Source of the DNA: Thermococcus sp. P6
GTDB taxonomy: Archaea > Methanobacteriota_B > Thermococci > Thermococcales > Thermococcaceae
Direction of reading: 5' to 3'
Assembly: GCF_002214525.1 (NCBI RefSeq)
Contig: NZ_CP015104.1
Location: 558,001-622,000 of the forward strand
Length of the DNA stretch: 64,000 nt
Part shown: positions 18,935 to 53,548 of the stretch, piece after piece
How the letters are laid out: each line of letters begins with the position of its first letter
How positions within the stretch are numbered: the stretch's first letter is position 1
Program-made: the position numbers and the translations under genes
Notes under the pieces: model-generated
What the model was told of the DNA's origin: nothing
What the model saw: only the letters and a program-made list of their open reading frames with translations
Database searches by the model: none

Positions 18935-18947
18935 TGCCACCACCATG

Positions 18948-19004
18948 TATAACATAGTTTTTAGATTTCAAAACTCAGTTTTTAGCGAGCCTTAAAAGGT
19001 TTTT
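18948..19004. promoter_or_regulatory. Thiamine-gene operator, copy A (thiC side)
   Basis: AGTTTT (18956-18961), N8, AAAACT (18970-18975), then AGTTTT (18977-18982). A near-identical stretch of about 57 bases, in the same orientation on the plus strand, precedes thi4 (copy B). For thiC, CTTTTAAGG on the minus strand (19000-18992) can serve as TATA, placing the transcript start within the repeat. This geometry suits a repressor such as the archaeal thiamine regulator ThiR, which is inference. Confidence 0.6.
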
Positions 19005-19062
19005 GATGATTACAAAAAACTTTTTAAGTAAGTAATTGGTATAAATATCCTGAGGTGTTTCA

Positions 19063-20646: not shown

Positions 20647-20712
20647 GCAGTCGGGTGTTTTCGCTTCTGTTTTTATCTCTTCTCGTATTTTAACTCGATT
20701 TTAAAACCTGTT

Positions 20713-20768
20713 TATAACAAAGTTTTTAAATTCCAAAACTTAGTTTTTAACGCAACTTAAAGGTTTTG
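20713..20768. promoter_or_regulatory. Thiamine-gene operator, copy B (thi4 side)
   Basis: AGTTTT (20721-20726), N8, AAAACT (20735-20740), T, AGTTTT (20742-20747), in the same order and orientation as copy A; identity continues into CTTAAAGGTTTT. GTTTTTAAATT within it is the probable thi4 TATA box, with transcription starting near 20752. Confidence 0.6.
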
Positions 20769-20778
20769 GGTGGTGAAG

Positions 20779-21534
20779 ATGAGGGACGTCGAGATAAGCA
20801 AAGCTATAGTTGAGGCCTACTTCAACGACCTTATCGAGAACCTCCAGCTCGACGTTGCCGTGGTTGGGGCCGGCCCATCGGGAATGGTTGCCGCTTATCA
20901 CCTCGCCAAAGGCGGCGCAAAGGTGGCGATCTTCGAGAAGAAGCTCAGCACAGGTGGAGGAATCTGGGGCGGTGCAATGGGCTTTAACAAAGTGGTCGTT
21001 CAGGAGGAGGCGAAATCCATTCTGGACGAGTTCGGAATCTCCTACAAGGAATTCGAGAAGGGTTACTACGTTGCAGATGCCGTTGAGGTGGCAGCGACGA
21101 TGGCGAGCAGAACCGTGAAGGCCGGAGTGAAGATCTTCAACATGGTTGAGGTCGAGGATCTGGTCGTTAAAAACAACCGCGTGGCCGGAGTTGTTATCAA
21201 CTGGACACCAGTTAAGATGACGAACCTCCACGTTGATCCGCTAACGGTTGAAGCCAAGTTCGTGATCGACTCCACGGGACATGGAGCAATGGTAAGCCAG
21301 TTCCTCGTGCGTAGGGGGTTGATGGAGGGGATCCCAGGCGAGGGTGCGATGTGGGCCGAGATGGGAGAAAAACTGACGGTCGAGAACACCGGGGAGGTCT
21401 ACCCCGGGCTCTACGTTACCGGAATGGCGGCTAACGCACTGAAAGGCTCCCCGAGGATGGGACCGATATTCGGGGGAATGTTCCTGAGCGGAAGGAAGGC
21501 CGCGATGGAGATACTCGAGAAGCTTAAGAAATAA
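20779..21534 (+). CDS. thi4: Thiazole synthase Thi4, histidine (sulfide-using) type
   Basis: 251 residues; builds the thiazole of thiamine from NAD and glycine. Dinucleotide fold [19 protein letters not shown] near residue 29, [12 protein letters not shown] near 59, and a C-terminal [19 protein letters not shown]-like stretch. At the position where yeast Thi4 has its sacrificial Cys205, this protein has His151 (NLHVDP), as in methanogen enzymes that use external sulfide and turn over catalytically. Start at ATG 20779 behind GGTGGTG; GTG 20770 is in the ribosome binding site. Acts with ThiC, whose gene lies 1.8 kb away in the opposite direction. Confidence 0.93.
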
Positions 21535-21632
21535 ACGATCCCCGTAAGTTTTGCTTTCTCTCATTAGCCGTAAATTTTATATTCAAGTTTTTTCTTGAAT
21601 ATAATTGAAGAGTTTGACTTGAGGTGATCGGT

Positions 21633-22640
21633 ATGGGGAAGCTTGAGGTTATCGAGCAGAAGGGGACCGAACGTTTGAAGCGCGGTTTTGCCAGGATGGT
21701 CAAAGGCGGCGTTATAATGGACGTTACAAACGCCGAGCAGGCCCGAATAGCTGAAGAAGCTGGAGCTGTTTCCGTTATGGCACTCCACAAAGTCCCTGCC
21801 GACATCAGGAAGGCCGGCGGAGTGGCGAGGATGGCACCGATTGAGAAGATTCAGGAGATAATGGATGCGGTCACGATTCCCGTCATGGCAAAGATCAGGA
21901 TAGGGCATTACGCCGAAGCGAGGATACTGGAAGCTTTAGGCGTTGACATGATCGACGAGAGCGAGGTACTAACGCCCTCTGACCCGTTCTTCCACGTGGA
22001 CAAGAGGAAATTCAAAGTGCCATTTGTTTGCGGTGCAAGGAACCTCGGGGAAGCCGTGAGGAGAATCTGGGAAGGTTCGGCAATGATCAGAACCAAGGGC
22101 GAAGCCGGAACCGGGAACATAGTTGAGGCCGTAAGGCATGTAAGGCTGGTCAATGAGAACATCAGGCTTCTGAAAAGGTTAACAGACGAGCAGATTTACG
22201 GGGTGGCCAAAAAGTTTGCGGAACCTTACCTGAGGCTGGCCTTGGAAGTTAAACAGATAAGCGGTCTGGAGCCCAGAGTTTTAGAGAACGAACCGATTTA
22301 CGAGGAATACACCTATGGGGAGATAGTGGACGGCCTCTACAGGATTCTTCTCGAAATTAAGAAACTGCAGAGGTTACCGGTGGTTAACTTCGCCGCCGGT
22401 GGTGTGGCGACTCCGGCGGATGCTGCCCTAATGATGCAGATGGGAATGGACGGCGTTTTCGTTGGAAGCGGGATCTTCAAGAGTTCCGACCCGGAGAAGA
22501 TGGCGAGGGCAATAGTTGAGGCGGTTAACCACTATGACGAGCCGGAGGTAGTTGCGGAGATAAGCAGGGAAATAGGAGAACCCATGAAGGGCAGTGATAT
22601 AGAGGAGCTCGAGGTTCGCCTCGAGGAGAGGGGAGTCTGA
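21633..22640 (+). CDS. pdxS: Pyridoxal 5'-phosphate synthase, PdxS subunit
   Basis: 335 residues; makes PLP from ribose 5-phosphate, glyceraldehyde 3-phosphate and ammonia. Conserved stretches: [44 protein letters not shown] (catalytic lysine), [36 protein letters not shown]. About 45 residues longer than bacterial PdxS because of an insert after the [11 protein letters not shown] helix, as in other Thermococcales. Start at ATG 21633 behind GAGGTGAT. Forms a complex with PdxT, encoded 15 bases downstream. Confidence 0.96.
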
Positions 22641-34283: not shown

Positions 34284-39368
<5,085 letters not shown>

Positions 39369-39430
39369 CTTTACATTTTTATGCTTAAATAACAAGTTTT
39401 TTAAATTACATTTAACAATTTTATGTTGAA
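39369..39430 (+). promoter_or_regulatory. guaA promoter with purine-type motifs
   Basis: CTTTACATTTTTATG (39369-39383) precedes the TATA-like GTTTTTTAAATTAC (39396-39409); ACATTTAACAATTTTATGT follows at about 39408-39426. One motif on each side of TATA, as at purC and purP. Confidence 0.45.
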
Positions 39431-39440
39431 GGTGAAGGTC

Positions 39441-40364
39441 ATGTGGGAGGAGTTCATAGGTGAGAAGGTCGAGGAGATAAGGAAGACGGTCGGCGATGGA
39501 AAGGCAATTATAGCCCTGAGCGGAGGGGTGGACAGCTCGACGGCCGCTGTTCTGGCCCACAGGGCAATCGGCGACAGGCTACACGCGGTTTTCGTCAACA
39601 CCGGTTTCATGAGGAAGAACGAGCCGGAGTTCGTTGTGAAAACCTTCCAGGACGACCTTGGCCTGAACCTTATCTACGTCGACGCTCAGGAGCGCTTCTT
39701 TGAGGCCCTTAAGGGCGTCACGGATCCGGAGGAGAAGAGGAAGGTAATAGGAAAAACCTTCATAGACGTCTTTGAGGAGGTCGCCCGCGAGATCGATGCC
39801 GGCTTTTTGATTCAGGGGACGATAGCCCCGGACTGGATAGAGAGCAAGGGGAAGATAAAGAGCCACCACAACGTCGGTGGCTTACCCGAGCGTTTGAACC
39901 TCAGGCTCATCGAACCATTGAGGGACCTCTACAAGGACGAGGTCAGGGAGCTCGCGAGGGAGCTCGGTCTTCCAGAGAAGATTTACAATAGAATGCCCTT
40001 CCCGGGGCCGGGTCTGGCCGTCCGCGTCCTCGGAGAGGTCACCCCAGAGAGAGTAGCCATCGTCAGGGAGGCCAACGCCATAGTGGAGGAGGAGATCGAG
40101 AGGGCCAAACTAAAGCCGTGGCAGGCCTTTGCAGTCCTTTTGGGAGTTAAAACCGTCGGAGTTCAGGGAGATATAAGGGCCTACAAGGAGACAGTAGCCG
40201 TTAGGGTTGTTGAGAGCCTTGACGGGATGACCGCAAATGCCATGGAGGTTCCCTTCGAAGTGCTGCAGAGGATAGCCTTCAGGATAACAAGCGAGGTTCC
40301 TCAGGTGGGAAGGGTTCTCTACGACGTAACCAACAAGCCTCCTGCAACAATAGAGTTTGAGTAG
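39441..40364 (+). CDS. guaAb: GMP synthetase, ATP pyrophosphatase subunit B
   Basis: 307 residues; activates XMP with ATP and accepts ammonia to give GMP. The PP-loop SGGVDSS appears near residue 30, and [48 protein letters not shown] and the C-terminal KPPATIEFE are characteristic. In archaea the glutaminase is a separate protein, encoded here 9 bases downstream. Start at ATG 39441 (MWEEF) behind GGTGAAGG. Confidence 0.96.
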
Positions 40365-40373
40365 GTGAGGGGG

Positions 40374-40940
40374 ATGATAGTCATAATGGACAACCACGGT
40401 CAATACGTTCACAGGATATGGAGAACCCTGCGCTATCTGGGCGTCGATTCAAAGGTAATACGCAACACAACTCCTCTGGAGGAGATAAAGGCGCTGAGGC
40501 CGAAGGGCATAATCTTCTCCGGGGGCCCGGACATCGAGAGAACGGGCAACTGCCGGAAAATCCTTGAGCGTTACGATGAGTTCAACGTCCCCATACTGGG
40601 CATCTGCCTCGGCCACCAGCTCATAGCGAAGCACTTCGGCGGGAAGGTCGGGAGGGGCGAGAGAGCGGAATACAGCCTTGTGGAGATCGAGATAATCGAG
40701 AAGGACGAAATCTTCGAGGGCCTTCCGGAGAGGCTCAGGGTATGGGAGAGCCACATGGATGAGGTCAAGGAACTTCCAGCGGGCTTCAGGCTTCTGGCGA
40801 GGAGCGAGACCTGCCCGGTGGAGGCCATGAGACATGAGAGGCTTCCGATCTACGGGGTGCAGTTCCATCCCGAGGTCACCCACACGGAGAAGGGGAGTGA
40901 AATCTACCGCAACTTCGCAAGGCTCTGCGGGGAGCTTTGA
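40374..40940 (+). CDS. guaAa: GMP synthetase, glutaminase subunit A
   Basis: 188 residues; class I glutaminase supplying ammonia to subunit B. Motifs: [27 protein letters not shown], nucleophile in [19 protein letters not shown] and [12 protein letters not shown]. Start at ATG 40374 behind GGTGAGG. Completes the guaB-guaA set. Confidence 0.96.
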
Positions 40941-41031: not shown

Positions 41032-41307
41032 TTGGGGCACACTCTTTATTACCGTACTAGAATAGAGAGGAGATCCGGGTTCAGGAAATTCCTCAGGAGG
41101 GTCTGTGAGGGTATCGGCTACCGCTTCAGCGAAGGTTCAGGGTCTGTAATCGTCTTCCCGGAGTGCCCGCTCGTCGAACCCCTCGAGATCCCGTGGAAGG
41201 GAGAGGGTTCGGTCAAGACGAACCTCATCGAGCCCTGTCACTCGGTTTACCTCCTCATCCTTCACTCGGTCTCCTTCTTCGGCTCCGTAGAGCTCTGGGA
41301 GGACTGA
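41032..41307 (+). CDS. Conserved-looking protein of unknown function
   Basis: 91 residues with a TTG start. The protein has a basic N-terminal half (TRIERRSGFRKFLRRVCEG), then IVFPECPLVEPLEIP and KTNLIEPCHSVYLLILHSV. I believe I have seen closely related unnamed proteins in Thermococcales but cannot name a family. GGTGAT lies before the start and a TATA-like AAATTTTTTAAAG at about 40993. Its last 46 bases overlap, tail to tail, the final gene of the large minus-strand operon. Confidence 0.6.
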   Translation: MGHTLYYRTRIERRSGFRKFLRRVCEGIGYRFSEGSGSVIVFPECPLVEPLEIPWKGEGSVKTNLIEPCHSVYLLILHSVSFFGSVELWED

Positions 41308-42008
41308 TCCGTGAGGTAGACCTCGATTATCCTCACGGGCACGGCTCCCCTGAACGTCCTGTCCTCCACGAGGAGCTTCACGACCCTCCCCACCTCGAGG
41401 TCTCCAACAGCGTCCACCCAGTAGTGGCCGGGTTTGACGTTTGCCGCCATGTCGTCGTGGACGAAGATCCTGACGAGATCGCCCTTGATCTCTTCGACTA
41501 TCCCGTAGGTGTAATCCCTCCCGTACTTCGACTTGAAGTACCACCTGAAGACGAGGACGACCACGAGGACAAAGAGCAGGTACGCGTAATAGTAGTAGGC
41601 CTCCGGGGCCTTCCCGCGTATCAGGGCGTATCCGAGGAAAACCCCCAGGAGAATGGCGGATATGCCGTAGTAGAAGAACCTGTAGGGTTCATACTCGACG
41701 AAGAAGTTCCGGTTTTTGATAAGGGTGTACCTCAGGAAGGGGAAGTAAACCACCGCCAGTCCCACGAGCCAGAGCGGGTCGGCCCTGATGAGGAGCAGGA
41801 TGAAGTTGAGGATTAGATAGCCTGTGAAGGCCATCTGGAGCCTCAGACTAAGGTATTCGTGAACCGTAAGGGGCTTTTTGAAGAGCCGGCGGAGGTACCT
41901 GAAGTCGGGGGGACGCTCCGATGGCGATGGCATGAAAAAATCCCGGAGCCGATCGATGCCCGATTCTACAAGCTCGCCCACCCTGTAAAGGAACTCCTCA
42001 ACGTCCAT
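41262..42008 (-). CDS. Membrane protein, last gene of the pilin/CetZ operon
   Basis: 248 residues. A cytosolic N-terminal part (MDVEEFLYRVGELVESG) is followed by three or four membrane segments (about YLILNFILLLIRADPLWLVG, ISAILLGVFLGYAL, YLLFVLVVVLVFRWYF) and a soluble C-terminal beta-type domain (EIKGDLVRIFVHDDMAANVK, VGRVVKLLVED). It resembles the archaeal DUF2101 membrane proteins, though I am not certain. Start at ATG 42008 behind AGAGGTGAAA, four bases after the previous stop, so cotranscribed. It could anchor or assist the surface proteins. Confidence 0.7.
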   Translation of the reverse strand: MDVEEFLYRVGELVESGIDRLRDFFMPSPSERPPDFRYLRRLFKKPLTVHEYLSLRLQMAFTGYLILNFILLLIRADPLWLVGLAVVYFPFLRYTLIKNRNFFVEYEPYRFFYYGISAILLGVFLGYALIRGKAPEAYYYYAYLLFVLVVVLVFRWYFKSKYGRDYTYGIVEEIKGDLVRIFVHDDMAANVKPGHYWVDAVGDLEVGRVVKLLVEDRTFRGAVPVRIIEVYLTDQSSQSSTEPKKETE

Positions 42009-42012
42009 GATT

Positions 42013-44421
42013 TCACCTCTTGAGCAAATCTTCCGCTTCCACTTCGCCAAATATGGCCTCTGCCGTCTCTTCATCGAGGAAGAAAGGAATCGAGCTCAAA
42101 TCTCCCGTTGAAGTAATACCGTAGGATATCCCCCAGACGCGGTAACCTTCCACCTTGCTCCCCCTTCTGAAGTAATAGCTGAGGAAGTAGTAATCCACAC
42201 TGCTCTGTCCTTCCTCCACGGCTATTCCGAGGGAGTTGAAGAGGTTGAAGAGCTTCTCGTCGTAGCTGGCGTGGGGTATCATGAAGCTGACGAGGCCTAT
42301 CGGATAATATCTGTCCCCGTACTTAACTCCCAGCTCATCCTGCATTCTCTTGGCCAGTTCGAAGTATTCGTCATGATTTTTGCTGCTCCCCTCAAGCCTC
42401 TCGAAGAGGGACCAGCCGTCGTAGGTGCCGAAGTAACGCTGGTCCATAAGGCAGTCAACGAAGGGCTGGAGGTCGTAGGCCCTCGAAGGGCCGGCTGAGG
42501 AGGAAGGAGTGGGCTTTGTTTCTGGATCATTCTGGTTCACATTCGGATAGGAGATACCGTTAAAGTTGGGATCCTCAAGGCGGTCACTATCGTCGGGATA
42601 TTTCCTGATGGCTATCCAGTCGTAGATCGTCTCTCTCTTATTTTTCTCACTGTCCGTTACGAGGTAGAGCTTCCTCAGGGGTTCACTCCAAAAGCGGAAG
42701 TAACTGTCATCGTTTACCCCGCCATCGGTTATATCCTTGAACCTTGAATCCTTGCTTGATGATGAGTAAGGCTTCATGAGGGCCTCGTAGACGTGGTAAG
42801 TGTTGGCAGGACTTCTTCCGTCAACGTTCGACTCATTGTTCCACCATGCGTAGTGGATCGCAAGCCCATCTCCACCTCTTGTGCTGTCGTCCGTAAACAG
42901 CAACATCCTACCATCATCATCCTCGATTCCTATTCCTCCATCCCAATCTCGAGGGTTCTGCCGGTTGCTCATCATCCTGAACCTTACGGCAAAGCCCTTG
43001 GAAACGTCCAAATCCTGAGCAAGTGGATGCTCAACCTCATCTCCCCCATTAAGGGTGAACTCTCCCTTGAAATCGTTGAAGTACTCAAAGACCTCACTGC
43101 CATCTCCCTTCGTCGGCGGGAGCTCGTCTCCAAAATATAGCCCTATCCTGAGGTTGCCGTTCGCGGGTATCGAGGCCCTTATCCAGATCAATGCCTCTTT
43201 GTTGTTTGAATCCCAGTACTCGATCCAGAATGGAACTGGATTGCAGCTTGAGTTGTATATAGCTATGGAGGCGTTCGTTTCATAGGGATCACTGCCGGCT
43301 GTGGCGGTATTGCCGAATATCTCATTCAGCTGGTCTTGGGTGAATCCTTTGGCCGTGCTCAGGAGTATGGGGATCTGATAATCAGTCAGATCAACATTTA
43401 GGTTATTCCTAACTGTAATGTTGAGCCTGTGTCCAAGGGAGGAACACCATTCGCCCCCCCCGGACGAAGCACCGGAAAAAACGAGCACCCCCCTATCTCC
43501 ATCCTTGAAAATTTCAGCCGGATTTACCGGAGTGCCTTCCATAGTCGTGTTGACTATTATACGGTCGGCCGAATCTATGCTCCCCTCTTCGAGAACATAG
43601 GCGTAAGCTTTAGCTTCTTCATCATCGGGATACGTCTCCCCGATGAAAATTCCATTCGGATCGAGCTGGCTCGAGTAGGTCCCGACCACGTGACCCTCGT
43701 TGCTCTTTCCAGTTCCGTAAAGGACCTTTACCGGCTTATCTATGAGCTCCGGGAAGGGATAAGTGCAGGCTCTTATAGACCTCTGATACCTACCCCCGGT
43801 CATCGCCGAGAAGATTGGATCCTCAAGATCCCTTATGTCAACTATCGAGTAAGCGTATCCACTCCTCGGTATGGGGCCGGTGTAGACCACCCTCCCGGAG
43901 GTGTCGGAGATCGTGATGTTCGTTATCCTCGCCTTTATGACGATCCTGAAGGAATCGAGGGGTGCCACCGTGATGTTCATGTTATTGGCTATCTCATCCG
44001 CACCCGGGGAAAGCCTGTAGCCCTGTTCCCGGAGCTTTTCTCCGATGAGATCCAGCCATCTCTCTATGCTCTGGTTCTGCATTATCCTCTGAAGGTTCTC
44101 GTAGCTGGAGAGCTGGGGAGATGTAGCACGTAAAGTCAGATCCTTTATCGTTTCGTTTGCCGGCCTGTAAGTCAGAAAATTACCCGTGGTTGAGACGTAA
44201 TCGATAGCCGCCACCACCGCCCTCTTTCCGGATATCTCCAGCGCCTTTTGAAAGTCCATCTCAACGTACGATACTACCCGGTAGGTTCTCTCAACCTGAG
44301 TTCTCTCGCTCTGAGCCCCCACTATCTGGGACGAAACGTCCTCGTAGGTTGCCAGCAGGAGCATGAGGGGTATGAGCAGGAGCACGACGGTTGAGTTAAT
44401 CAGGAAGGCCCTTCTTTTCAT
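42013..44421 (-). CDS. Giant prepilin-like surface protein with DUF2341 domain
   Basis: 802 residues. N-terminus MKRRAFLINSTVVLLLIPLM is one membrane helix behind a basic start, resembling type IV prepilins but without the canonical G|Q cleavage. The rest is extracellular: a helical stalk (QSERTQVERTYRVVSYVEMD), a beta region, and from about residue 335 a DUF2341/concanavalin-like module (NLNVDLTDYQIPILL, IRASIPANGNLRIGLYFG, FEYFNDFKGEFTLNGG). Such modules occur in archaeal surface proteins and are thought to bind sugars or proteins. ATGA overlap with the preceding gene. Probably a cell-surface or appendage-tip protein. Confidence 0.75.
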   Translation of the reverse strand: MKRRAFLINSTVVLLLIPLMLLLATYEDVSSQIVGAQSERTQVERTYRVVSYVEMDFQKALEISGKRAVVAAIDYVSTTGNFLTYRPANETIKDLTLRATSPQLSSYENLQRIMQNQSIERWLDLIGEKLREQGYRLSPGADEIANNMNITVAPLDSFRIVIKARITNITISDTSGRVVYTGPIPRSGYAYSIVDIRDLEDPIFSAMTGGRYQRSIRACTYPFPELIDKPVKVLYGTGKSNEGHVVGTYSSQLDPNGIFIGETYPDDEEAKAYAYVLEEGSIDSADRIIVNTTMEGTPVNPAEIFKDGDRGVLVFSGASSGGGEWCSSLGHRLNITVRNNLNVDLTDYQIPILLSTAKGFTQDQLNEIFGNTATAGSDPYETNASIAIYNSSCNPVPFWIEYWDSNNKEALIWIRASIPANGNLRIGLYFGDELPPTKGDGSEVFEYFNDFKGEFTLNGGDEVEHPLAQDLDVSKGFAVRFRMMSNRQNPRDWDGGIGIEDDDGRMLLFTDDSTRGGDGLAIHYAWWNNESNVDGRSPANTYHVYEALMKPYSSSSKDSRFKDITDGGVNDDSYFRFWSEPLRKLYLVTDSEKNKRETIYDWIAIRKYPDDSDRLEDPNFNGISYPNVNQNDPETKPTPSSSAGPSRAYDLQPFVDCLMDQRYFGTYDGWSLFERLEGSSKNHDEYFELAKRMQDELGVKYGDRYYPIGLVSFMIPHASYDEKLFNLFNSLGIAVEEGQSSVDYYFLSYYFRRGSKVEGYRVWGISYGITSTGDLSSIPFFLDEETAEAIFGEVEAEDLLKR

Positions 44422-46514
44422 CAGCTCTCCCTCCACACCCTGAGGGTTATCGTTATTGGCTGGAACAGGCCGGGCACGTTGCCCATTGAGGCGAAGTCCA
44501 TCCTAACGCTGGCCGGAAGTCCCACGTCTATCGGGTTTTGCCGGGAGCCGTCGTAGGGAGTTTCCTTCCATTCTTCGGGGTTTTGGTCATCTCTGAAGTT
44601 GAGCTTATCCAAAAGCCTCAGGATGGCGTCGTCAACAGCATACCTGCCGGGATCCAGCTCCTCAACCTGGATCCGTCTGTAAGGCTCGTCCCCCACGAGG
44701 ATGGTTTTCTCTCCACTAATACTCGAGTAGTAGGTCAGGTTGTAGCCTTTGTAGGCAGGATAGCCCTGAAGGAGGTAGGGGAAAACATCTCCATACCCAG
44801 CGTAACCCTCTATGAAGTATCTTATTATTCCTCTTGTCTCACCATTCCTGACGTAGGAATTTCCATTCTCCATTCCGATCTCAAACTCGTTCTCCTGTCC
44901 GGGAACCATCATCCAGTCGTAAAGGCGCGTGTAGGCAACTCTAATGGCGTACATTCCAAGGGGACCGCTGTAGAACATTCTGCCATTCTCCCAGAGCTCC
45001 TGAACTGTTGAATAATCAAATACATACCCAACCCAATAATCCGCATACCATGGCGTGCTCCCGGGCGGAAGGGGATACGAGACACTCATTCTGGAACACA
45101 CCCAGTAATCCCCGTCATAGTGGCAATCCCTGTACTGGATATCATCGTAGTCCTTGAATATCGAAAGGGGTATGCTGTACGGGGTTACCACGGTTTTTGG
45201 AATGTAGCCAATCCTCACGTATGATTCCGGATAGCCGTATATCCTACGCTCTCTCTCAAGACCGTAATCCTGCCCCTCATAATACCAGTCTCCCTGCCAG
45301 TAAAGAGCGTCAAATCCAAGGACGAAGTCGAAGACCATTTTGCTCAGGTTCTCGTAGGTGACCCCCATATCTCTCAGGGCGGATCTGATCTCGTCGTCGG
45401 TGAACTCAACCACGGCATCACCGTTTGAATTCGCCGTTTTGGTTAAGAGGAGTGCCAAGTTTCCACCCAATCCGTAGTAAAGCCTCACCTCTCCCACGTT
45501 ATGCACCTTGAACCTCATGTCGATCGAGGTTATGTTGCCGGGAACGAAGGTTTCGAGGAGGTACATTATCCCCGTATACTCGGATGTAACGTCGTAGACC
45601 TTAACAATCCCGGGATCTTCGACCGAGGTGGAGTTCGTCCTGTACTTAACGTACATCGTGGTTCCGCTTGCGGAGCCTATTTCATTCCCTGTTGGCTCAC
45701 TAAAAACCAACGTGACGGCGTTGTCGCCACCATGAAGGTAATTCGTTAGGTTGTCCTTGTTAATCTGCTCATATCCCAAATCGACTGGTTCACTGTTAAT
45801 GTATAGATCTATACGCTCGTCATACCTAGCCACGAACTTACCATCAGCTTCCACCACTTTCGCATCAGAGGGCAGGGTTATGGTCCTGCTGATCGTCAGG
45901 GTGTTGTCTCCGTAGTAGGCGCCGGCGAGAACCCTGAACCACCCGAAAAGGTCTTCCCGTGTAGTGGTCGCCTTCGTCAGATAGGCCCTCGCCATGTAGC
46001 CCCTCGGCGTCTGGTTGTAGGCGTAACCGCTCAGTATGAGGGTTGCCGGGCTCACATCTTCAGCCGAAGAATAGTTCGCCCCGACCTTCCTCAGGTATGG
46101 GCTCGTGTAGTTGTTTATCAAAAGCTCGTAGTTGTAATCCTTAAGCGTGCTGTTGAGCAGGTATCCCATTATTACCTCGGCCTTGTGCCTGAGGTCTGCG
46201 GAGGGATACACGGGCTCCGCGGCCCAGTACGTTGCAACTATATCGAGGGGAGACATGTCCGGGCTTACGAGCGTCGTGTTCAGTGTCCCGTCATCCATCC
46301 ATTCCTCGATCTTCTCCGGGGGAACGAGATCCTTCAGCGGGACCGTCCTGAAGGTGGTGAGGGTATCCTCCGCCACGTACTTCGACTGGGAGCGCATGTA
46401 GGTTGAATAAACCTGAGTGTCCGGGTTGATCTGGGCCATGCTAACAACGAACAGGGTTATGAGCAGGAGGCCGAGTATGGCATCCAGCGTGAACACAAAG
46501 CCTCGCCTTTTCAT
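44421..46514 (-). CDS. Giant prepilin-like surface protein
   Basis: 697 residues. The N-terminus MKRRGFVFTLDAILGLLLIT has the basic-Gly-hydrophobic design of archaeal class III (prepilin-type) signal peptides, with cleavage expected after Gly5. The remaining ectodomain is beta-rich with many Tyr/Trp (DWYYEGQDYGLERERRIYGY) and a laminin-like or jelly-roll feel (NLALLLTKTANSNGDAVVEF); no named domain was recognised. ATGA overlaps on both sides tie it to its neighbours. A minor pilin with a large exposed head is the likeliest role. Confidence 0.72.
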   Translation of the reverse strand: MKRRGFVFTLDAILGLLLITLFVVSMAQINPDTQVYSTYMRSQSKYVAEDTLTTFRTVPLKDLVPPEKIEEWMDDGTLNTTLVSPDMSPLDIVATYWAAEPVYPSADLRHKAEVIMGYLLNSTLKDYNYELLINNYTSPYLRKVGANYSSAEDVSPATLILSGYAYNQTPRGYMARAYLTKATTTREDLFGWFRVLAGAYYGDNTLTISRTITLPSDAKVVEADGKFVARYDERIDLYINSEPVDLGYEQINKDNLTNYLHGGDNAVTLVFSEPTGNEIGSASGTTMYVKYRTNSTSVEDPGIVKVYDVTSEYTGIMYLLETFVPGNITSIDMRFKVHNVGEVRLYYGLGGNLALLLTKTANSNGDAVVEFTDDEIRSALRDMGVTYENLSKMVFDFVLGFDALYWQGDWYYEGQDYGLERERRIYGYPESYVRIGYIPKTVVTPYSIPLSIFKDYDDIQYRDCHYDGDYWVCSRMSVSYPLPPGSTPWYADYWVGYVFDYSTVQELWENGRMFYSGPLGMYAIRVAYTRLYDWMMVPGQENEFEIGMENGNSYVRNGETRGIIRYFIEGYAGYGDVFPYLLQGYPAYKGYNLTYYSSISGEKTILVGDEPYRRIQVEELDPGRYAVDDAILRLLDKLNFRDDQNPEEWKETPYDGSRQNPIDVGLPASVRMDFASMGNVPGLFQPITITLRVWRES

Positions 46515-47953
46515 GAGTCATCCCACACTAAGAGTTTTATCACGGCCCCATCGAACCTCGGCCCCATAAGGAACCTTATACCCGGGGTTATCTCAAGGCC
46601 CACATCATCCCTGCGCCATCCTTCCAGAGAGTAGAGCCACAGACCGATGGGCTTATCCGTGGCATCCACTGACCCGAAAAGATCTTTGAAGGGCACCGTT
46701 ATCACGCCGTTCACACCGCGGTAGTGCTTCGTATGTGCCTCACCGTTCTCGTAGTAGACGAGCGTTGCGTTAAGCTCCCCTTGGTTTCCGTAAACGAAAA
46801 GACCTCTGACTTCGGTTCCAAGAAGGGAAACGAGCGTCAGGTTGCCCTGAGAGGAGGAACCAACGCTTATCCTGAGGGAAGTTTCGAGGGGAGGGTTGTA
46901 CCTCATCACGCCGTATAGGATGGGCTCTTCCTTCGATGGGCCTGCCGAAAGGTTGTAGAAGAACGTCGAGACCATGATGTACCTGTCCACGGGCTCTATC
47001 CACGGCGAGCGTGCCATCGATTCGTTTATCGTCGTCGCATCTTCCACCACCGAGCCGTTGATCAGGGCGAAACCGTAGGCCGGTTCGCCCATTTCGACGA
47101 AGTTCTGGGCACTCGTGAAGTTTGAAACGATCTGAGGGGAAGCGTTATCATAGGCCGAGATCTGGATCTGAACCTGACCCTGGCCGCCTATGTGTATTGA
47201 GGTCACATTATGGGGGCATCCGTCTACTTTCATGTGATAGCTGCTCGTGGAATCAAGGACCCTGAACTCGACCCTTACGTTCTGCGGTAGGGTCTCCTCA
47301 AATTTTTGCTTTCCTTGGACGGTAACATCTATCTCTTGGGTGGCCACGAACACAAGATAATCGTTTCGTTCAAGGAATACATTATTCCCCCCACCCTGAG
47401 CTAAACTGCATACCTCCTTACCCACGTAAGTGGTTCCTCCCCGGGTTAGGCTGATGTAGGAAACTGGAAACTCTTTATTGCCGTTTCCCGCCAGAGAGAT
47501 CTTAACGTTCCCCAGATCATTTCCCGGGAGGATGAGGTTGTAGAGGTAGTACCTTGGGAAGCTACCATCAACATTGACTTTAAACCTCGAAAGGTAGACC
47601 TCCAGAAGGAAGTCCTTCCCGCTCGCCATGCTGTACAAAGCGTCCTTAAGCTGGTCTTTTGAGCTGTTCAAAGCAAGCAGCTTTCCGTAATCAAGGGCGA
47701 AGTAATAGTTATCGTCCCTCAGCCCAACCACCTTCACATCTGAGGGGTTATCCTCCCAGTCCCCGGGATCGCCGGGGCTCTTAACGAGCAGGTCCATCAT
47801 ACCATCCCCGATGTTGGCCCTCTCGTACCAGCCGAGGAGGGAGGTCACCTCCGCCTTTATGTCCTCGGAGGCGGACGTGAAAGTGCCGAGTATCATTATC
47901 ACAACGATCAGGGCGAGCATCGCATCGAGTGAAAACAGCTGACCCCTCCTCAT
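46511..47953 (-). CDS. Large prepilin-like surface protein
   Basis: 480 residues starting MRRGQLFSLDAMLALIVVIM, a class III signal with probable cleavage between Gly4 and Gln5 and a hydrophobic helix that would pack in a filament core. The ectodomain is beta-rich (VRVEFRVLDSTSSYHMKVDG, LRISVGSSSQGNLTLVSLLG). No family was recognised beyond the signal. ATGA overlaps with both neighbours. One of six prepilin-like proteins of the operon. Confidence 0.72.
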   Translation of the reverse strand: MRRGQLFSLDAMLALIVVIMILGTFTSASEDIKAEVTSLLGWYERANIGDGMMDLLVKSPGDPGDWEDNPSDVKVVGLRDDNYYFALDYGKLLALNSSKDQLKDALYSMASGKDFLLEVYLSRFKVNVDGSFPRYYLYNLILPGNDLGNVKISLAGNGNKEFPVSYISLTRGGTTYVGKEVCSLAQGGGNNVFLERNDYLVFVATQEIDVTVQGKQKFEETLPQNVRVEFRVLDSTSSYHMKVDGCPHNVTSIHIGGQGQVQIQISAYDNASPQIVSNFTSAQNFVEMGEPAYGFALINGSVVEDATTINESMARSPWIEPVDRYIMVSTFFYNLSAGPSKEEPILYGVMRYNPPLETSLRISVGSSSQGNLTLVSLLGTEVRGLFVYGNQGELNATLVYYENGEAHTKHYRGVNGVITVPFKDLFGSVDATDKPIGLWLYSLEGWRRDDVGLEITPGIRFLMGPRFDGAVIKLLVWDDS

Positions 47954-48423
47954 GTTCTCACCACGTCAACCTCTATCTCAATCTCGTATCCGTTGAGGTA
48001 AAGCTTCCCCTTCTTTTCAACGACGTTGGTCCTCGAAGTGAGGTCCCCCTCGATGTACTCCCTTATCCCGCTCTCGATCGCTCCTTCATCCATTCCGCTC
48101 CCGGTGTAGGATATCCCGACCTTCACCCGAATCCTGCCTTCCGTTTCCTCCGTCTCAATCCCCGAGATCTGAAAAGCCCTGTAGGTGTAATTAACGGCCT
48201 CTATTATTTCGTTCAGGGGTTCATATAGGCTTTCGTTAACCACAACACCCGTGTTCAGGTAGGCGCAGGCATCTGAGGCGGAGTTCCTTACGTAGGTTAC
48301 CGCCGAGGTGACCACGTTCTCGTGGAGGTAGGGGGGTACGATGATCAGAACTCCCGTGAGGATCAGAGCCGTGATGAAGAGCACCTCAAGGGAGGTCTGG
48401 GCCCTACGGCGAGAGTGTAACAT
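47950..48423 (-). CDS. Small prepilin-like protein, class III signal peptide
   Basis: 157 residues. RRRAQTSLEVLFITALILTG carries the archaeal class III signature QxSxExxxL, which Thermococcales/Methanococcus prepilin peptidases cut before the Gln. A small C-terminal domain with IRVKVGISYTGSGMDEGAIE follows. Size and signal fit a filament subunit or minor pilin. It overlaps the gene upstream by 20 bases and the one downstream by 4. Confidence 0.75.
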   Translation of the reverse strand: MLHSRRRAQTSLEVLFITALILTGVLIIVPPYLHENVVTSAVTYVRNSASDACAYLNTGVVVNESLYEPLNEIIEAVNYTYRAFQISGIETEETEGRIRVKVGISYTGSGMDEGAIESGIREYIEGDLTSRTNVVEKKGKLYLNGYEIEIEVDVVRT

Positions 48424-48844
48424 CGATCCACCCCCCCGTTTCGTTGTGTTGGGCCCTTATAAGGAACGCCCTGTTTTCCCACGTCAGGACTACGGAGCTC
48501 TTCCGGTGCAGTGAAAGGGGAACCTTCTGGATGACGCTGTACCTTCTTCCCCCTATGGTGGCGTTGACGAGCAGCTTATCCGGGGGTGCGAGGCTCACGG
48601 TCACGCTATCACCCGTCCCCAGCTCCATCGGGAGCTCCTTCCTCAGGGTGAAGCCATTTCCGGAGGAGTAAACCTTGACGACCGAATCCCTCACGTCTAT
48701 TGAGAAGGCCTTCAGCTTTGAGACCGTGTCGAAGGTCTCCGAATGAACCCTCTCGCTGCTCGCAATGTAAACTATGTTAAGCGCCGTGATGCCTATGAGC
48801 GTAACCGCGAAGAGGAAATCGAGGCTTATCTGTCCCCTTTTCAT
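48404..48844 (-). CDS. Small prepilin-like protein, class III signal peptide
   Basis: 146 residues starting MKRGQISLDFLFAVTLIGIT: basic residues, Gly, then QxSxDxL, a slight variant of the class III prepilin motif, and a long hydrophobic helix. The C-terminal domain is beta-rich (GTGDSVTVSLAPPDKLLVNA, SSVVLTWENRAFLIRAQHN), like a compact pilin head. Start at ATG 48844, inside the ribosome binding site overlap GGTGGGTGAG of the preceding stop. Confidence 0.75.
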   Translation of the reverse strand: MKRGQISLDFLFAVTLIGITALNIVYIASSERVHSETFDTVSKLKAFSIDVRDSVVKVYSSGNGFTLRKELPMELGTGDSVTVSLAPPDKLLVNATIGGRRYSVIQKVPLSLHRKSSVVLTWENRAFLIRAQHNETGGWIDVTLSP

Positions 48845-48845
48845 C

Positions 48846-49478
48846 TCACCCACCGGGATTTATGTTTATCCTGAGCTCGCCCCTTTCCTGATCGAAGGTC
48901 CAGAGGTCGGGCTTATCGGGGTTCCACTCCACGACCACCCTGAGGATCGCCGGAACGTCGGCCGGATCCAGCTCAAGGCCGTAGATCCGCACTCCACCGA
49001 TGGTTAAGCTGCCCCTTGGAGACCACACGTCGGAGCGGTTGTAGAGAACGGCCCCATAAAGGGCCCTGCTCCAGAAGACGTTCTTGTCCCCGCCGCTCAG
49101 GACGGGGGTGGAGTCCTTCCCGGTAACCGTGACGTAGGTTCCGTTACCGCTATCGGTGTAGTTCCCGTAGGTTACGAAGACCTTCGGGTCCTCAACTCCG
49201 AGACCTTTGAGGAGCATATCCCTGTCCCGGAGGTAGGTTAGCCTGACGTAGGCGGTGGACTTTGAGCCGGGCCCCTGAGAGTAGACCTGAGACACCGTGT
49301 TCGATATCACGTTGGCGAGGTTCTTCTCTTCGAGGCTTATCTGGATCCTCAGGTTCTCGGTTGAGGCGGAGCCCTCTTTAAAGGTCACGTTGTTCACGGA
49401 ATAGAGCAGGAGGATGAGCATTAGACCGAAGACCAGCATGAACTCGAGTGAAACCTGCCCGCGCTTTCTAAGTTCCAT
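48846..49478 (-). CDS. Prepilin-like protein, class III signal peptide
   Basis: 210 residues. MELRKRGQVSLEFMLVFGLM has the textbook class III motif QVSLEFMLV after Lys-Arg-Gly, so the peptidase would cut between Gly and Gln. The mature head is beta-rich (TAYVRLTYLRDRDMLLKGLG, SLTIGGVRIYGLELDPAD). Start at ATG 49478. First of the six pilin-like genes after the CetZ and membrane-protein genes; probably a main or core subunit, which is inference. Confidence 0.78.
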   Translation of the reverse strand: MELRKRGQVSLEFMLVFGLMLILLLYSVNNVTFKEGSASTENLRIQISLEEKNLANVISNTVSQVYSQGPGSKSTAYVRLTYLRDRDMLLKGLGVEDPKVFVTYGNYTDSGNGTYVTVTGKDSTPVLSGGDKNVFWSRALYGAVLYNRSDVWSPRGSLTIGGVRIYGLELDPADVPAILRVVVEWNPDKPDLWTFDQERGELRININPGG

Positions 49479-49512
49479 ACCTCTCCCCCATGTGGGTTCG
49501 TCCATCTTCTAT

Positions 49513-50133
49513 TTAATCGTTGCCCCCGGATTTTACGACGGCAAATATTCCTTTCCCTATTCTTACGGTCTTCACACCGAAGTAATCCCCGCTGAATATC
49601 TTGAACCTGTAGCGGTCGCTCTTCAGCGAGTGCCTTTCGATGATCTCCTTAAGTTCGTCGATGAAGAACTGGGTCAGTTCGTAGTAAATCAGGTCGAGCT
49701 TTTCCCCCGTGAAGTCCCTGACGAAGAGGGCAGCCGGGAGCATCGCAAGTCCGATTATCAGGTAAAGTTCCCCGGAGATCGCTGTGGCGAGGGCCGTGGC
49801 CCCTGCGAGGAAGCCTATCAGGGTGTAGAGCAGGGTTGCGTTTCTCTTCGTCTTCTTGATCTCCTTGACCTTCCGCTCCCACAGGTCCAGAAGGGCGGGG
49901 TTGTAGAAGTCAAAGGCCGTGTGGCGCTTTCCCTTCGATATCCTCTCCCTGATGAGGTCCTCCCAGTCGTCCCGGTAGTAGATGACCTCGCCGTGGAGTT
50001 TCGCCCGCTCAGCATCGAGAGAGGAGATGATCCTCGTTATGTCCTCGGCGCTCTCGTGGGCCACGTGGGAGTAAAGCTCGCTCTCGTCCAGCTCGAGGGC
50101 AACCTCGACGGAGTCCCTGACGGGTTCACTCAT
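49513..50133 (-). CDS. Membrane protein next to the CetZ gene
   Basis: 206 residues. A charged cytosolic N-terminal helical part (about 100 residues, DITRIISSLDAERAKLHGEV), then a hairpin of two membrane helices (LLYTLIGFLAGATALATAIS and LYLIIGLAMLPAALFV), then a cytosolic C-terminal domain (KIFSGDYFGVKTVRIGKGIF). No known family. Its start overlaps the end of the CetZ gene by 8 bases. Both large domains appear cytosolic, so it could tether the tubulin-like protein to the membrane. Confidence 0.7.
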   Translation of the reverse strand: MSEPVRDSVEVALELDESELYSHVAHESAEDITRIISSLDAERAKLHGEVIYYRDDWEDLIRERISKGKRHTAFDFYNPALLDLWERKVKEIKKTKRNATLLYTLIGFLAGATALATAISGELYLIIGLAMLPAALFVRDFTGEKLDLIYYELTQFFIDELKEIIERHSLKSDRYRFKIFSGDYFGVKTVRIGKGIFAVVKSGGND

Positions 50134-51277
50134 CCTCCCGCCTCCTGAGCCTTTTGATGATTCCCTCTATGCTCCCCGGATAGTTCTCCTCCATCCCCGC
50201 CGGGTAAACGTCATCGAAGTCGGGCAGACCGCTTAGGAGCTCCTTTTTCCTCGTTTCGGCCTCCTCCTTTACCTCCATGAACGAGCGAGCGTACTGTTTT
50301 GCGGTGATGATTATCTCCTCGATGCTGCTGCTCTCGTATATCCCGCTCAGGAGCGTAACCACCTCAACCTCCCTCTCGCGCGGGTCCGGGTAGAACCCCC
50401 TGAATATCTGCTTGCCCCTTATCTTTCCGGTCAGGTAGTCGAGGGCCTCAAAGATCTCGGAAGCTTTGAGGACTTCCGGCGGGCCGTGGATGGCCACGAG
50501 TCCGTAAAGGGCCGACTCGATGTTCGCGTCGAGGTACAGCCCCTCGCTCTCGAAAGATCTCATGATCAGACGGGAGAGGTTCTTCACCTTACCCGCCTCG
50601 GCCTTTGCGTAGCCAACCGTTGCGAAGCTTCCGAAGGCCTTCAGAACGAACTTCAGATCGCTCGCGTCGAGGGTCTGTTCCCCGGGAACGTCAACGAGCG
50701 CCAGAAGGGATGCTATCCTCTCCACGACGGTGTAGTTTATCCTCTCGTAGGCCCGCGTTATGTCGTCGTTTCCCTCCTTGAGCTTGTTGTTGTCTATGGC
50801 TATTATCGAGTCCGCCACCCGGGATAGCTTGTCTATGGTTATGGCGGCGTTTATGGTTGGCCTTATGCCCTCCTCCCTGAGGGGAAGGGCTCCTATGGCC
50901 ACCACGAGGGCCTCCGGGTACTCCTCCTTGAGGGCCTGAGCGAGTACGGGCGTTCCACCCGCCCCCGTTCCACCTCCGAATCCGAAGGTGAGGAAGAAGA
51001 CGTCAACGTCCTCGTAGCCTATTATCGACCCTATCTTACGCATGACAACCGGAAGGTCACGTTTCATGGCCTCCCTTCCCAGTATCGGGTTGGCGTTGAC
51101 GCCTTTGCCGTTGGTGAGACCCTCGCCTATAAGTACCCTCCTCTCGGAGGGAACGTGCTTGAGGTACTCGAGGTCCCCCTTTGATGTGTTCACGGCTATG
51201 GCCTCAAAGTCCACCAGCGCGAACAGGTCCGCTATCTTGGTTCCGCACTGGCCGATTCCCACTATAAGGGCCCTCAC
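50126..51277 (-). CDS. cetZ: CetZ/FtsZ-like tubulin homologue
   Basis: 383 residues of the tubulin superfamily. GTP-binding N-terminus IVGIGQCGTKIADLF, the tubulin signature GFGGGTGAGGTP at about 99-109, AIGALPLREEG, and a T7-loop-like LDASDLKFVL with the catalytic-type aspartate. Sequence is closer to archaeal CetZ-type proteins, which control cell shape in haloarchaea, than to cell-division FtsZ. Here it is the second gene of the operon for pilin-like surface proteins, overlapping a two-helix membrane protein. I infer a cytoskeletal or positioning role for the surface structure; the start is GTG. Confidence 0.85.
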   Translation of the reverse strand: MRALIVGIGQCGTKIADLFALVDFEAIAVNTSKGDLEYLKHVPSERRVLIGEGLTNGKGVNANPILGREAMKRDLPVVMRKIGSIIGYEDVDVFFLTFGFGGGTGAGGTPVLAQALKEEYPEALVVAIGALPLREEGIRPTINAAITIDKLSRVADSIIAIDNNKLKEGNDDITRAYERINYTVVERIASLLALVDVPGEQTLDASDLKFVLKAFGSFATVGYAKAEAGKVKNLSRLIMRSFESEGLYLDANIESALYGLVAIHGPPEVLKASEIFEALDYLTGKIRGKQIFRGFYPDPREREVEVVTLLSGIYESSSIEEIIITAKQYARSFMEVKEEAETRKKELLSGLPDFDDVYPAGMEENYPGSIEGIIKRLRRREDE

Positions 51278-51284
51278 CTGTTGC

Positions 51285-53468
51285 TCACCCCACCGTTGTT
51301 ACCTTCACCCTTCCCCTTTCGATGCGGAACACCATCGCGTTCCCCCTGATGTAACGGATGAAACTTGAGGTAAAGATTTCCCTGGCGATTTCAACGTTCT
51401 CGGGTTCGTAGAGCACGAAGAGGACAACCCCTCCCGCGGTTTTGCCCGGAACGAGGATTACGGATTCATTCGTCGGCACGGTGACGTTGCCCACTGTGAC
51501 GGTGCCATTCTCGAGGTGGAACCCTACGTAAGGATTGTAGGCCCCGACGTCGTACTCCCCGAAGTTCGCCATGACTATGTAGCTGTCCTCGCCGATTGAA
51601 GTGATGTTTACCCGCACGAAACCGCCGCTGAAGAGGTTGTTAAGGGCCTCCACGACTTCCTCGAGGCTCTCGTTGTCCATCCCCGGGCCAATTACCCTGA
51701 ACATTTTGACATCGAGCAGAGTCCTCACGTCGTAGAGGGTCACCGGAGGAACGAACCGGTACCGGGAGAGGTACTCTATCGCGCTGGCGAGCTCTATCGT
51801 TTTTCCCTTTATACTCCCACCGTCCCTGGCGTCCATGACGAACTTCAGGGTTTCGTTGGTGTAGTCGTAGCCGTAGTTGAGCAACAAATCGGTCGCCCTG
51901 ACCGTAAGCTCGACCCTCGGTTCACCCATGGTCTTCATGTAGGGCCAGCCGCCGTCGACTCTCTGGCCAACGAGCCACTCGATGTGGGGTTTAAGCTCTT
52001 CAGCAGTGGCGATCCTTCCGAGGACCTCGAGGACGGTCAGGGTCGTCAGCACGTCCGGTTCGAGCATGTAGGAGTAGTAGTGGTTCGTGATCATGGTCCC
52101 CCATCCACCGTCGCTTACGCCGAGGAGCCAGTCCCTCGCCCTCTGGACGAGCGGATCCTCCGGGGAAACCCCGAGGTCGAGAAGGGCATCTACGGCAAGG
52201 GCGGTGTCGTAAGGCTGGGGTCCGAAAATCCTGCTACCCCAGAGCCCGTGGTAGAGCTGGACCTCCCGTATAAGGTCCTCCGCTTCCTTCATCTCCTCCG
52301 GAGTAAGGTTGTCGTACTTAAGGAGCGTTTTGAGGGCGTAGTAGTAACCCACGGACATCCTGTGATTTTCCCTCATCCACTCCGCATCCCTTTCGAAGGC
52401 CTCCCTCGCCCATGAGAGGGCCTTCTCCACCGAACCCTTCTCCGGATAGCAGGCCTCAAGGCTCAGTAGTGCGTAGTAGGTGGCCTTCTCGCTGGAGGGA
52501 TCGTTGGGCTTGAGGCCCCATCCCCCGTCCGGGTTCTGCAGGTTTTTGAGTTCATCACAGGGCAGTTCGTAGGGGTTCTTCACCTCTTCCACCGGTCGAA
52601 TCTCAACGTTGGTCGAAATCGCCATGAGGGCGTAAGCCGTCGTTGCTATCGGCTCCGTTGAGGAGAAGAAGACCGGCTCGCTCGTCCAGTAAACGAGATT
52701 GCCGGATCTCTGAGCGTAGGATTCGAGCATCATAACGGCCTTTGCGGTTTCAAAATCCATCGGATCGTTCAGAAGGAGCCCATAGGTTAGCATGGCCCTT
52801 TCCTTCATGCTCAATTCGCCGTTGAAGAGCAGTTCTCTGACCCTCTCCAGTGTTTCGTTCGATACCCCGTAGCCCACGCTGTGGTAGGCTATTAGCCTGA
52901 GGGCGAGCGCCTCGTGATCCGGTATCTCGCAGGTAGTGTTTTCAAGATACCTGAGTGCCACCCTGACCGGCCGGCTGTTGTAGCTGTACCGATTCTCCCC
53001 GAGGGCCCATACGGCCATCAGCGTGGGATAGCAGTAGGAAGGAGTCCCCGGAACGTAGCCCCAGCCGGCTTCATTTTCGGCCGAGAGAAGGTAGGATATA
53101 CCCTCCTCGATGGCCGATCGGACCGCACCAACCTCCGGGGCGGGAAGGTGGGGATAGGCCCTTCTGAGGGCTATGATTGCGTAGGAGGTGTCGACCACGC
53201 TGCTTACCTCACCCGGGTAGAAACCCCATCCACCATCCGGGTTCTGATAACCAATGAGCCTGTTGACGAGATCGTCTACCTCCGAGCTCAGGTCCAGGTT
53301 CTCATTTTCGGCAGTTGAGAGGGCCATTATCATCAGGCTTATTTCCCTCGTCTGCTGGGTTGAACCGGCCATACCTTTAAGGAACCTTACCGAGCCGTCC
53401 ACGGTACCGGCACTCACTACAGGGATTACCATAAGGACCATAATTGCCAGAGCTAAAAGTCTCTTCAT
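51285..53468 (-). CDS. Secreted alpha/alpha-toroid (prenyltransferase-like) repeat protein
   Basis: 727 residues. Signal peptide KRLLALAIMVLMVIPVVSAG, then repeated QxxDGGWG units (YQNPDGGWGFYP, LQNPDGGWGLKP, VSDGGWGTM, RVDGGWPYM) of the squalene-cyclase/prenyltransferase toroid fold to about residue 560, and a C-terminal beta region. The acidic DxDD motif of true cyclases is not evident, so a binding or adhesion role outside the cell is more likely than terpene chemistry. First gene of the operon; the promoter TATA GTTTATTTATTT lies at about 53502-53513. The start ATG 53468 follows GGGGTGCGGG. Confidence 0.8.
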   Translation of the reverse strand: MKRLLALAIMVLMVIPVVSAGTVDGSVRFLKGMAGSTQQTREISLMIMALSTAENENLDLSSEVDDLVNRLIGYQNPDGGWGFYPGEVSSVVDTSYAIIALRRAYPHLPAPEVGAVRSAIEEGISYLLSAENEAGWGYVPGTPSYCYPTLMAVWALGENRYSYNSRPVRVALRYLENTTCEIPDHEALALRLIAYHSVGYGVSNETLERVRELLFNGELSMKERAMLTYGLLLNDPMDFETAKAVMMLESYAQRSGNLVYWTSEPVFFSSTEPIATTAYALMAISTNVEIRPVEEVKNPYELPCDELKNLQNPDGGWGLKPNDPSSEKATYYALLSLEACYPEKGSVEKALSWAREAFERDAEWMRENHRMSVGYYYALKTLLKYDNLTPEEMKEAEDLIREVQLYHGLWGSRIFGPQPYDTALAVDALLDLGVSPEDPLVQRARDWLLGVSDGGWGTMITNHYYSYMLEPDVLTTLTVLEVLGRIATAEELKPHIEWLVGQRVDGGWPYMKTMGEPRVELTVRATDLLLNYGYDYTNETLKFVMDARDGGSIKGKTIELASAIEYLSRYRFVPPVTLYDVRTLLDVKMFRVIGPGMDNESLEEVVEALNNLFSGGFVRVNITSIGEDSYIVMANFGEYDVGAYNPYVGFHLENGTVTVGNVTVPTNESVILVPGKTAGGVVLFVLYEPENVEIAREIFTSSFIRYIRGNAMVFRIERGRVKVTTVG

Positions 53469-53548
53469 TACCCGCACCCCTGCGTCCACATAAGAGAAGG
53501 AAATAAATAAACTTTTTCATTAAAAAGAAAAAGCAGGGGAAACCGGGC

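Follow-up and report, generated by a model that had tools for sequence, protein, structure and literature searches.

CetZ is an archaeal tubulin-family protein that acts outside cell division and whose partners are mostly unknown. In the clade-1 pilus loci of most Thermococci, an FtsZ-family GTPase (arCOG02202) is found together with a squalene cyclase (arCOG03396), as reported by Makarova et al. 2016 (PMC4858521), who attribute the original description of this association to Szabo et al. 2007. All of the Thermococcales cetZ regions analyzed by Brown & Duggin 2023 (PMC9856176) were pilus-associated and conserved in gene order. Here, we characterize such a region in a 64,000-nucleotide (nt) stretch of the Thermococcus sp. 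P6 genome (assembly GCF_002214525.1, contig NZ_CP015104.1, positions 558,001-622,000), referred to below as the window. Ten open reading frames on the minus strand (41262-53468), numbered g1 to g10 in transcription order, form the cluster (Table 1). It is the already-described Thermococcales cetZ/type IV pilus locus, and the link between CetZ and the pilus is not new. A prior interpretation made from the DNA letters (the sequence-only reading) had predicted these ten genes, all of which are present on the minus strand at the positions given. Its protein types, a toroid protein, a CetZ, a two-helix protein and a multi-pass membrane protein (here assigned to DUF2101), agree with Pfam and hydropathy. 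It had placed CetZ at the head of the operon, a position that belongs to the toroid gene g1; CetZ is the second gene. Overall, its interpretation is partly supported. On the evidence below, we consider the case to be about evenly balanced for the cluster supplying the type IV pilus (clade 1) of Thermococcales with its minor and tip subunits and with a cytoskeletal scaffold. The most likely reading of the sequences is that CetZ forms a membrane-anchored scaffold for pilus assembly.

The survey covered 94 Thermococcales genomes, all of which encode CetZ, and 60 cluster neighborhoods were fetched from six genera. Genes g2 to g9 are present in the same order in all 60, the exception being a locus in which g5 was found only as a cross-hit to g4 (L072), and at least 56 loci preserve the order of all ten genes. 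Two loci lack the toroid gene (L062 and L072, genomes G020 and G072), and one lacks g10 (L084). The block is intact despite a differing upstream flank in seven loci and a downstream flank that was not found in another count of seven. Median gaps from g1 to g10 are 7, -8, 40, 1, -20, -4, -4, -1 and 6 nt (58-60 loci). The cetZ and g3 genes overlap in every locus, and the g6/g7, g7/g8 and g8/g9 pairs overlap by a few bases in most. This coupling is far beyond chance. The description of the genes as joined by overlaps or very short gaps thus fits most junctions, where the gaps are near-constant, but not g3/g4, where the 34 nt gap in Thermococcus sp. P6 contains a conserved promoter-like element. 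CetZ and the two-helix gene adjoin class III signal genes in every one of the 60 neighborhoods, which was the check that the sequence-only reading had proposed.

Families were called with Pfam and its cut-offs, and membrane helices by hydropathy. The g2 protein matches the Tubulin (PF00091, E-value 1.2e-29) and CetZ_C (PF21011, E-value 3.3e-15) families, both over the cut-off, and its best matches in the Protein Data Bank (PDB) are the Haloferax CetZ structures 4b46 and 4b45 (CetZ1/CetZ2). The T4 loop GGGTGxG is present in all 59 CetZ orthologues. Given its FtsZ homology, and the approximately three FtsZ/tubulin-family matches in each genome, CetZ might be a third FtsZ with a role in cell division whose adjacency to the pilins is historical. 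We regard this as highly improbable, as the other two FtsZ-like genes of each genome match weakly (~31% identity) and CetZ has both the CetZ_C domain and a C-terminal peptide of its own. The peptide, invariant within Thermococcales as LPDF[DE]D[ILVM]Y, was absent from 38 haloarchaeal CetZ2 proteins.

Mean pairwise identity between loci is 86% for CetZ, 60% for g3 and 34-50% for the pilins. Within g3, identity is 80% over the N-terminal ~90 residues, 32% in the transmembrane hairpin and 57% in the C-terminal part. The FtsZ C-terminal peptide docks on membrane anchors, and by analogy a contact between the CetZ tail and g3 is the natural hypothesis. Within this phylum, all profile matches of g3 fell in Thermococcaceae except for two weak matches. 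These two are proteins of 233-246 amino acids (aa) from two other Thermococci families (L189, 6135-6836, and L190, 7640-8380; E-values of ~5e-7 in a small local search). They resemble only the C-terminal 60 residues of g3 and have no CetZ or pilin genes nearby, and were not used. PDB searches with g3, g8 and g9 returned no significant match.

Promoter enrichments were calculated against shuffled sequences. The transcription factor B recognition element (BRE)/TATA pattern GGAAAAAGTTTATTTAT is found upstream of g1 in 93% of 58 loci, compared with 5% in shuffles, and upstream of each of g2 to g10 in 0-5% of loci. A second element, TTAAATA, escapes this pattern: 58 of 60 loci have it no more than 70 nt upstream of g4 (median distance 41 nt), compared with 2.3% of shuffles, although shared ancestry means that these loci cannot be counted as 58 independent observations. 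For the motif AANNNTTAAATA, 0.16 occurrences are expected per window and three were found, one of them at the g3/g4 junction. Relative to g3, TTAAATA is found in each of the three reading phases, and its distance from the stop codon takes 14 different values; this variation argues for selection on the DNA. It is preceded by AA at -5/-4 in 58/58 cases, with variable neighboring positions, and 18-22 nt downstream of it the sequence is AT-rich, as expected for the -10 region. The layout matches that of Thermococcus promoters, in which a BRE ~5 nt upstream of the TATA is combined with an AT-rich -10 element (PMC5316973, PMC4247193), and transcription-start maps are published for T. kodakarensis (PMC4247193) and T. 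onnurineus (PMC5316973). Genes g4 to g10 probably have their own promoter (the predicted P2), and read-through into them from P1 is likely because the genes abut. CetZ and its membrane partner on the one hand, and the pilins on the other, would then probably make up two overlapping transcription units. Of the single ten-gene operon put forward in the sequence-only reading, the shared arrangement stands; given the conserved element upstream of g4, a simple operon is probably not what is present. Expression of CetZ apart from the pilins, which that reading had named as an outcome that would count against it, may hold in part. In the two loci that lack g1, a TATA-like sequence directly precedes cetZ.

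The conserved second promoter, which separates g1-g3 from g4-g10, fits a different view, in which CetZ and g3 are a general cell-shape or envelope scaffold and the pilin genes are neighbors through one surface regulon, with no direct mechanical coupling. CetZ also changes at a much lower rate than the pilins, and Haloferax CetZ1 is required for rod shape (PMC11621097, PMC9856176). Against this view, the arrangement is unbroken across 60 loci and six genera even though both flanks break, and haloarchaea have a cetZ2-pilus association of their own (PMC9856176). We consider such an uncoupled scaffold to be rather doubtful.

Hydropathy predicts a single N-terminal transmembrane helix in each of g4 to g9, as well as two helices in g3 and four in g10. 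Pfam placed no family over the cut-off on g3, g5, g7 or g8. The g4-g6 proteins match the archaeal class III (EppA-type) pattern [KR][GA]|Q-x-x-x-[ED] followed by a hydrophobic helix. The acidic residue is at +5 in all 60 g4 orthologues and in all g5 (55/55) and g6 (58/58) orthologues with a recognizable site, and at +6 in 56 of 57 g7 and 50 of 51 g8 orthologues with a site. In 60/60 orthologues of g9, the largest of the prepilin-like proteins, the [KR][GA]|[FY] site is followed by no acidic residue at either +5 or +6. Thus, all six proteins named as prepilin-like in the sequence-only reading have the site and the N-terminal helix, but g9 is atypical. The g8 profile also matches the g7 N-terminus, indicating a region common to the two proteins; within this phylum, g8 was found in Thermococcaceae only. 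The g9 protein contains a DUF2341 region (E-value 5e-18, over the cut-off), which was found in 47 of its 60 orthologues; among the remaining 13, 12 are short (~360-480 aa). Since nearly all short forms lack DUF2341, this suggests a modular gain or loss of adhesin domains. Orthologue lengths fall into three groups (L031-L090): ~360-480, 715-860 and 1060-1200 aa. A tip position for DUF2341 proteins has been proposed by analogy with Pseudomonas PilY (PMC4858521).

The toroid protein g1 has a transmembrane segment at residues 5-23, and its PDB matches are cyclase-like toroids. The DxDD catalytic motif is absent from the Thermococcus sp. P6 protein, and the string occurs in 3 of 58 orthologues; we therefore do not file g1 as a terpene or squalene cyclase. 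Two genomes without g1 keep the rest of the cluster, which indicates that g1 is dispensable for its retention.

The cluster encodes no assembly ATPase, platform protein or prepilin peptidase, and the expectation in the sequence-only reading that these come from elsewhere proved correct, with an ATPase, two TadC proteins and an EppA-type peptidase located at other loci of the same genome. A locus at 15.4-21.8 kb of the genome encodes the ATPase, two TadC (T2SSF) proteins, a DUF515 protein and a secreted protein. The ATPase (648 aa, T2SSE) lies at 17836-19782 and together with the two TadC genes spans 17836-21759. With ~37% identity to the archaellum ATPase, it is well separated from that protein; it is a putative clade-1 member and is present in all 94 Thermococcales genomes. 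In about half of the Thermococcales, it is split at a fixed site (query residue 486) by an insertion of ~500 aa, presumably the known KlbA intein, which Thermococcus sp. P6 lacks. The EppA-type peptidase (398 aa, Arc_PepC, E-value 2.9e-29), encoded at ~655 kb, is present in 92 of 94 genomes. Directly beside it is a 54-aa class III pilin, a candidate major pilin (655122-656486 for the pair), and further small stand-alone class III proteins are encoded at 930 and 1038 kb. These small proteins fit the role of major pilin, which Makarova et al. 2016 (PMC4858521) proposed to be encoded by stand-alone genes.

Instead of a long pilus, the prepilins and the toroid protein might build a short pseudopilus, a secretion apparatus or a sugar- or polymer-binding surface complex that shares the ATPase and TadC proteins. 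Three of the subunits are far above the size of filament pilins, two of them being highly variable in size, and 58 of 60 loci also encode the large secreted toroid protein. This alternative appears unlikely to us: the same genome has the small stand-alone class III pilins, one of them beside EppA, the toroid gene is dispensed with in two genomes, and three Methanococcus maripaludis minor pilins are essential for piliation (PMC4858521). Service to the archaellum, suggested by the effect of CetZ1 on archaellum positioning in Haloferax (PMC11621097), is largely refuted, and we give it next to no credence. The archaellum locus of Thermococcus sp. P6 is separate (~1401-1413 kb). The archaellum ATPase (FlaI) is absent from 12 of the 74 good Thermococcales genomes surveyed for it, and the cluster is kept in all eight of the fetched loci from such genomes (G017, G020, G027, G032, G040, G073, G076 and G087), which are near-complete; G020 keeps it minus g1. 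The cluster is thus associated with the pilus machinery rather than with the archaellum.

In the membrane-anchored scaffold that we favor, EppA would trim all six prepilin-like proteins. The g9 protein, with its DUF2341 domain and without the acidic residue, would occupy the tip and g7 and g8 the positions below it; g4-g6 would act near the base or the tip as an initiation complex. The ATPase and the TadC pair would then extend the filament with small pilins. The g3 protein would keep CetZ polymers at the membrane, with the LPDFDDxY tail probably contacting the g3 N-terminal domain, and these polymers would set where or when the pilus machine assembles. The analogy with Haloferax CetZ1 (PMC11621097) makes it plausible that CetZ places the filaments. 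The CetZ/g3 genes, under P1, and the pilin genes, under P2, could be tuned separately and yet be kept together. In its strongest form, CetZ would be a dedicated pilus cytoskeleton that docks its tail on g3 and nucleates or places pili, with linked but separate promoters and with a similar arrangement in haloarchaea using unrelated partners; this we put forward tentatively, as a possibility.

Several points weigh against a pilus scaffold. What ties CetZ to g3 is conservation and adjacency, and the AlphaFold prediction for g3, made from a single sequence, failed with a predicted local distance difference test score of 37. Since CetZ and the pilus ATPase are both found throughout the order, nothing can be concluded from their co-occurrence by itself. 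With the predicted internal promoter, CetZ and the pilins need not be co-transcribed. Pili built with an ATPase of this class are also made by clade-1 methanogens, from orders for which the CetZ survey (PMC9856176) has no CetZ entry; pili of this kind thus have no intrinsic requirement for CetZ. Our literature search gave no experiment on any gene of the cluster.

Thermococcales combine one CetZ with a genetically tractable species, T. kodakarensis, and offer a minimal set of CetZ, one candidate membrane anchor and one pilus system. This makes the role of CetZ at the membrane directly testable. As the gene cluster itself is already published, the value of the present analysis lies in sharper hypotheses.

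Table 1 Genes and sequence elements of the cetZ/pilus cluster in the Thermococcus sp. P6 window
Feature	Position in window	Strand	Details
Promoter P1, BRE/TATA GAAAAAGTTTATTTAT	53503-53518	-	TATA ~43 nt upstream of the g1 ATG
g1, secreted alpha-alpha toroid protein, squalene/hopene-cyclase-like	51285-53468	-	727 aa; signal peptide; QW-type repeats; Pfam SQHop_cyclase_C/N over cut-off
g2, CetZ, tubulin/FtsZ superfamily	50126-51277	-	383 aa; Pfam Tubulin and CetZ_C
CetZ C-terminal peptide LPDFDDVY	50204-50227	-	Invariant form in 59/59 Thermococcales orthologues
g3, two-helix membrane protein	49513-50133	-	206 aa; 8-nt overlap of its start with the cetZ stop
g3 N-terminal domain (residues 5-95), soluble and presumably cytoplasmic	49849-50121	-	Candidate CetZ-binding domain, from conservation contrast
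Internal promoter-like element AACGATTAAATA (BRE/TATA), g3/g4 junction	49510-49521	-	TTAAATA conserved in 58/60 loci
g4, prepilin-like, MELRKRG|QVSLEF	48846-49478	-	210 aa; Class_IIIsignal over cut-off
g5, prepilin-like, MKRG|QISLDF	48404-48844	-	146 aa; acidic +5
g6, prepilin-like, RRRA|QTSLEV	47950-48423	-	157 aa; Class_IIIsignal E-value 0.0072, below cut-off
g7, large prepilin-like, MRRG|QLFSLD	46511-47953	-	480 aa; acidic +6
g8, large prepilin-like, MKRRG|FVFTLD	44421-46514	-	697 aa; acidic +6
g9, very large prepilin-like, DUF2341, MKRRA|FLINST	42013-44421	-	802 aa; candidate pilus-tip adhesin; no acidic residue at +5/+6
g10, DUF2101 membrane protein	41262-42008	-	248 aa; DUF2101 E-value 1.1e-79, over cut-off; four predicted transmembrane helices

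Elsewhere in the window, a clustered regularly interspaced short palindromic repeat (CRISPR) array is found at 35471-37317 on the minus strand; its 30-nt repeat, Rfam CRISPR-DR6, is present in 28 copies at a spacing of ~67 nt. The Rfam scan gave no match inside the ten-gene cluster. A scan for bacterial promoters and terminators gave no more matches than chance, the method not being applicable to archaea. GMP synthase is encoded at 39423-40940 (plus strand) as two adjacent genes, the PP-ATPase subunit followed by the glutaminase subunit, adjoining guaB. Two-gene GMP synthases are common in archaea.

GspK, the tip subunit of the type II secretion system (T2SS), has no acidic residue at +5. The g9 protein resembles this class of T2SS and type IV pilus tip subunits in lacking the residue and in being the largest prepilin of its set. 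It differs in its DUF2341 domain, which is not known from GspK, and the resemblance concerns these traits and not sequence homology. Compared by description, the EppA-dependent clade-1 pili of M. maripaludis (minor pilins EpdA-C) have the same EppA-type peptidase and sites, an ATPase with two TadC proteins, and scattered small pilins (PMC4858521). No CetZ or toroid gene is reported for that system. Our g3 search covered the phylum of the Thermococcales and placed the family in Thermococcaceae.

The haloarchaeal cetZ2-pilB2/C2 cluster (PMC9856176) likewise has a CetZ gene beside type IV pilus genes. It differs in that cetZ2 is divergent to pilB2/pilC2, which lie inside the cluster, and in its partners (DUF7310, DUF7311, DUF7283, DUF7284 and DUF7286). 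In 48 haloarchaeal CetZ2 loci, profile hidden Markov models (HMMs) of g1 and g3-g10 gave no match at E-values up to 1, whereas the CetZ HMM matched in 48/48; a recognizable pilus ATPase lies near cetZ2 in nine of the 48. The Thermococcales and haloarchaeal pairings thus share CetZ only, which fits independent pairing, although very fast pilin evolution could also hide homology. A similarity of g8 to haloarchaeal DUF7288 (E-value 0.0052) was considered as a link to the cetZ2 pilus cluster and dropped. DUF7288 lies hundreds of kilobases from cetZ2 where contig numbering permits the comparison (L109/G094), and no HMM match of this bridging type was obtained in the haloarchaeal cetZ2 loci.

The published Thermococcales locus has the same CetZ, the toroid or squalene-cyclase-like protein, five to six class III pilins and the DUF2341 protein in the same order, with no difference in gene content. 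To it we add four features that we did not meet in the literature searched, namely the second promoter, the g9 protein without the acidic residue, the CetZ tail and the conservation contrast within g3. We further place the other loci of the pilus machine explicitly in the genome, and document the retention of the cluster in genomes without an archaellum.

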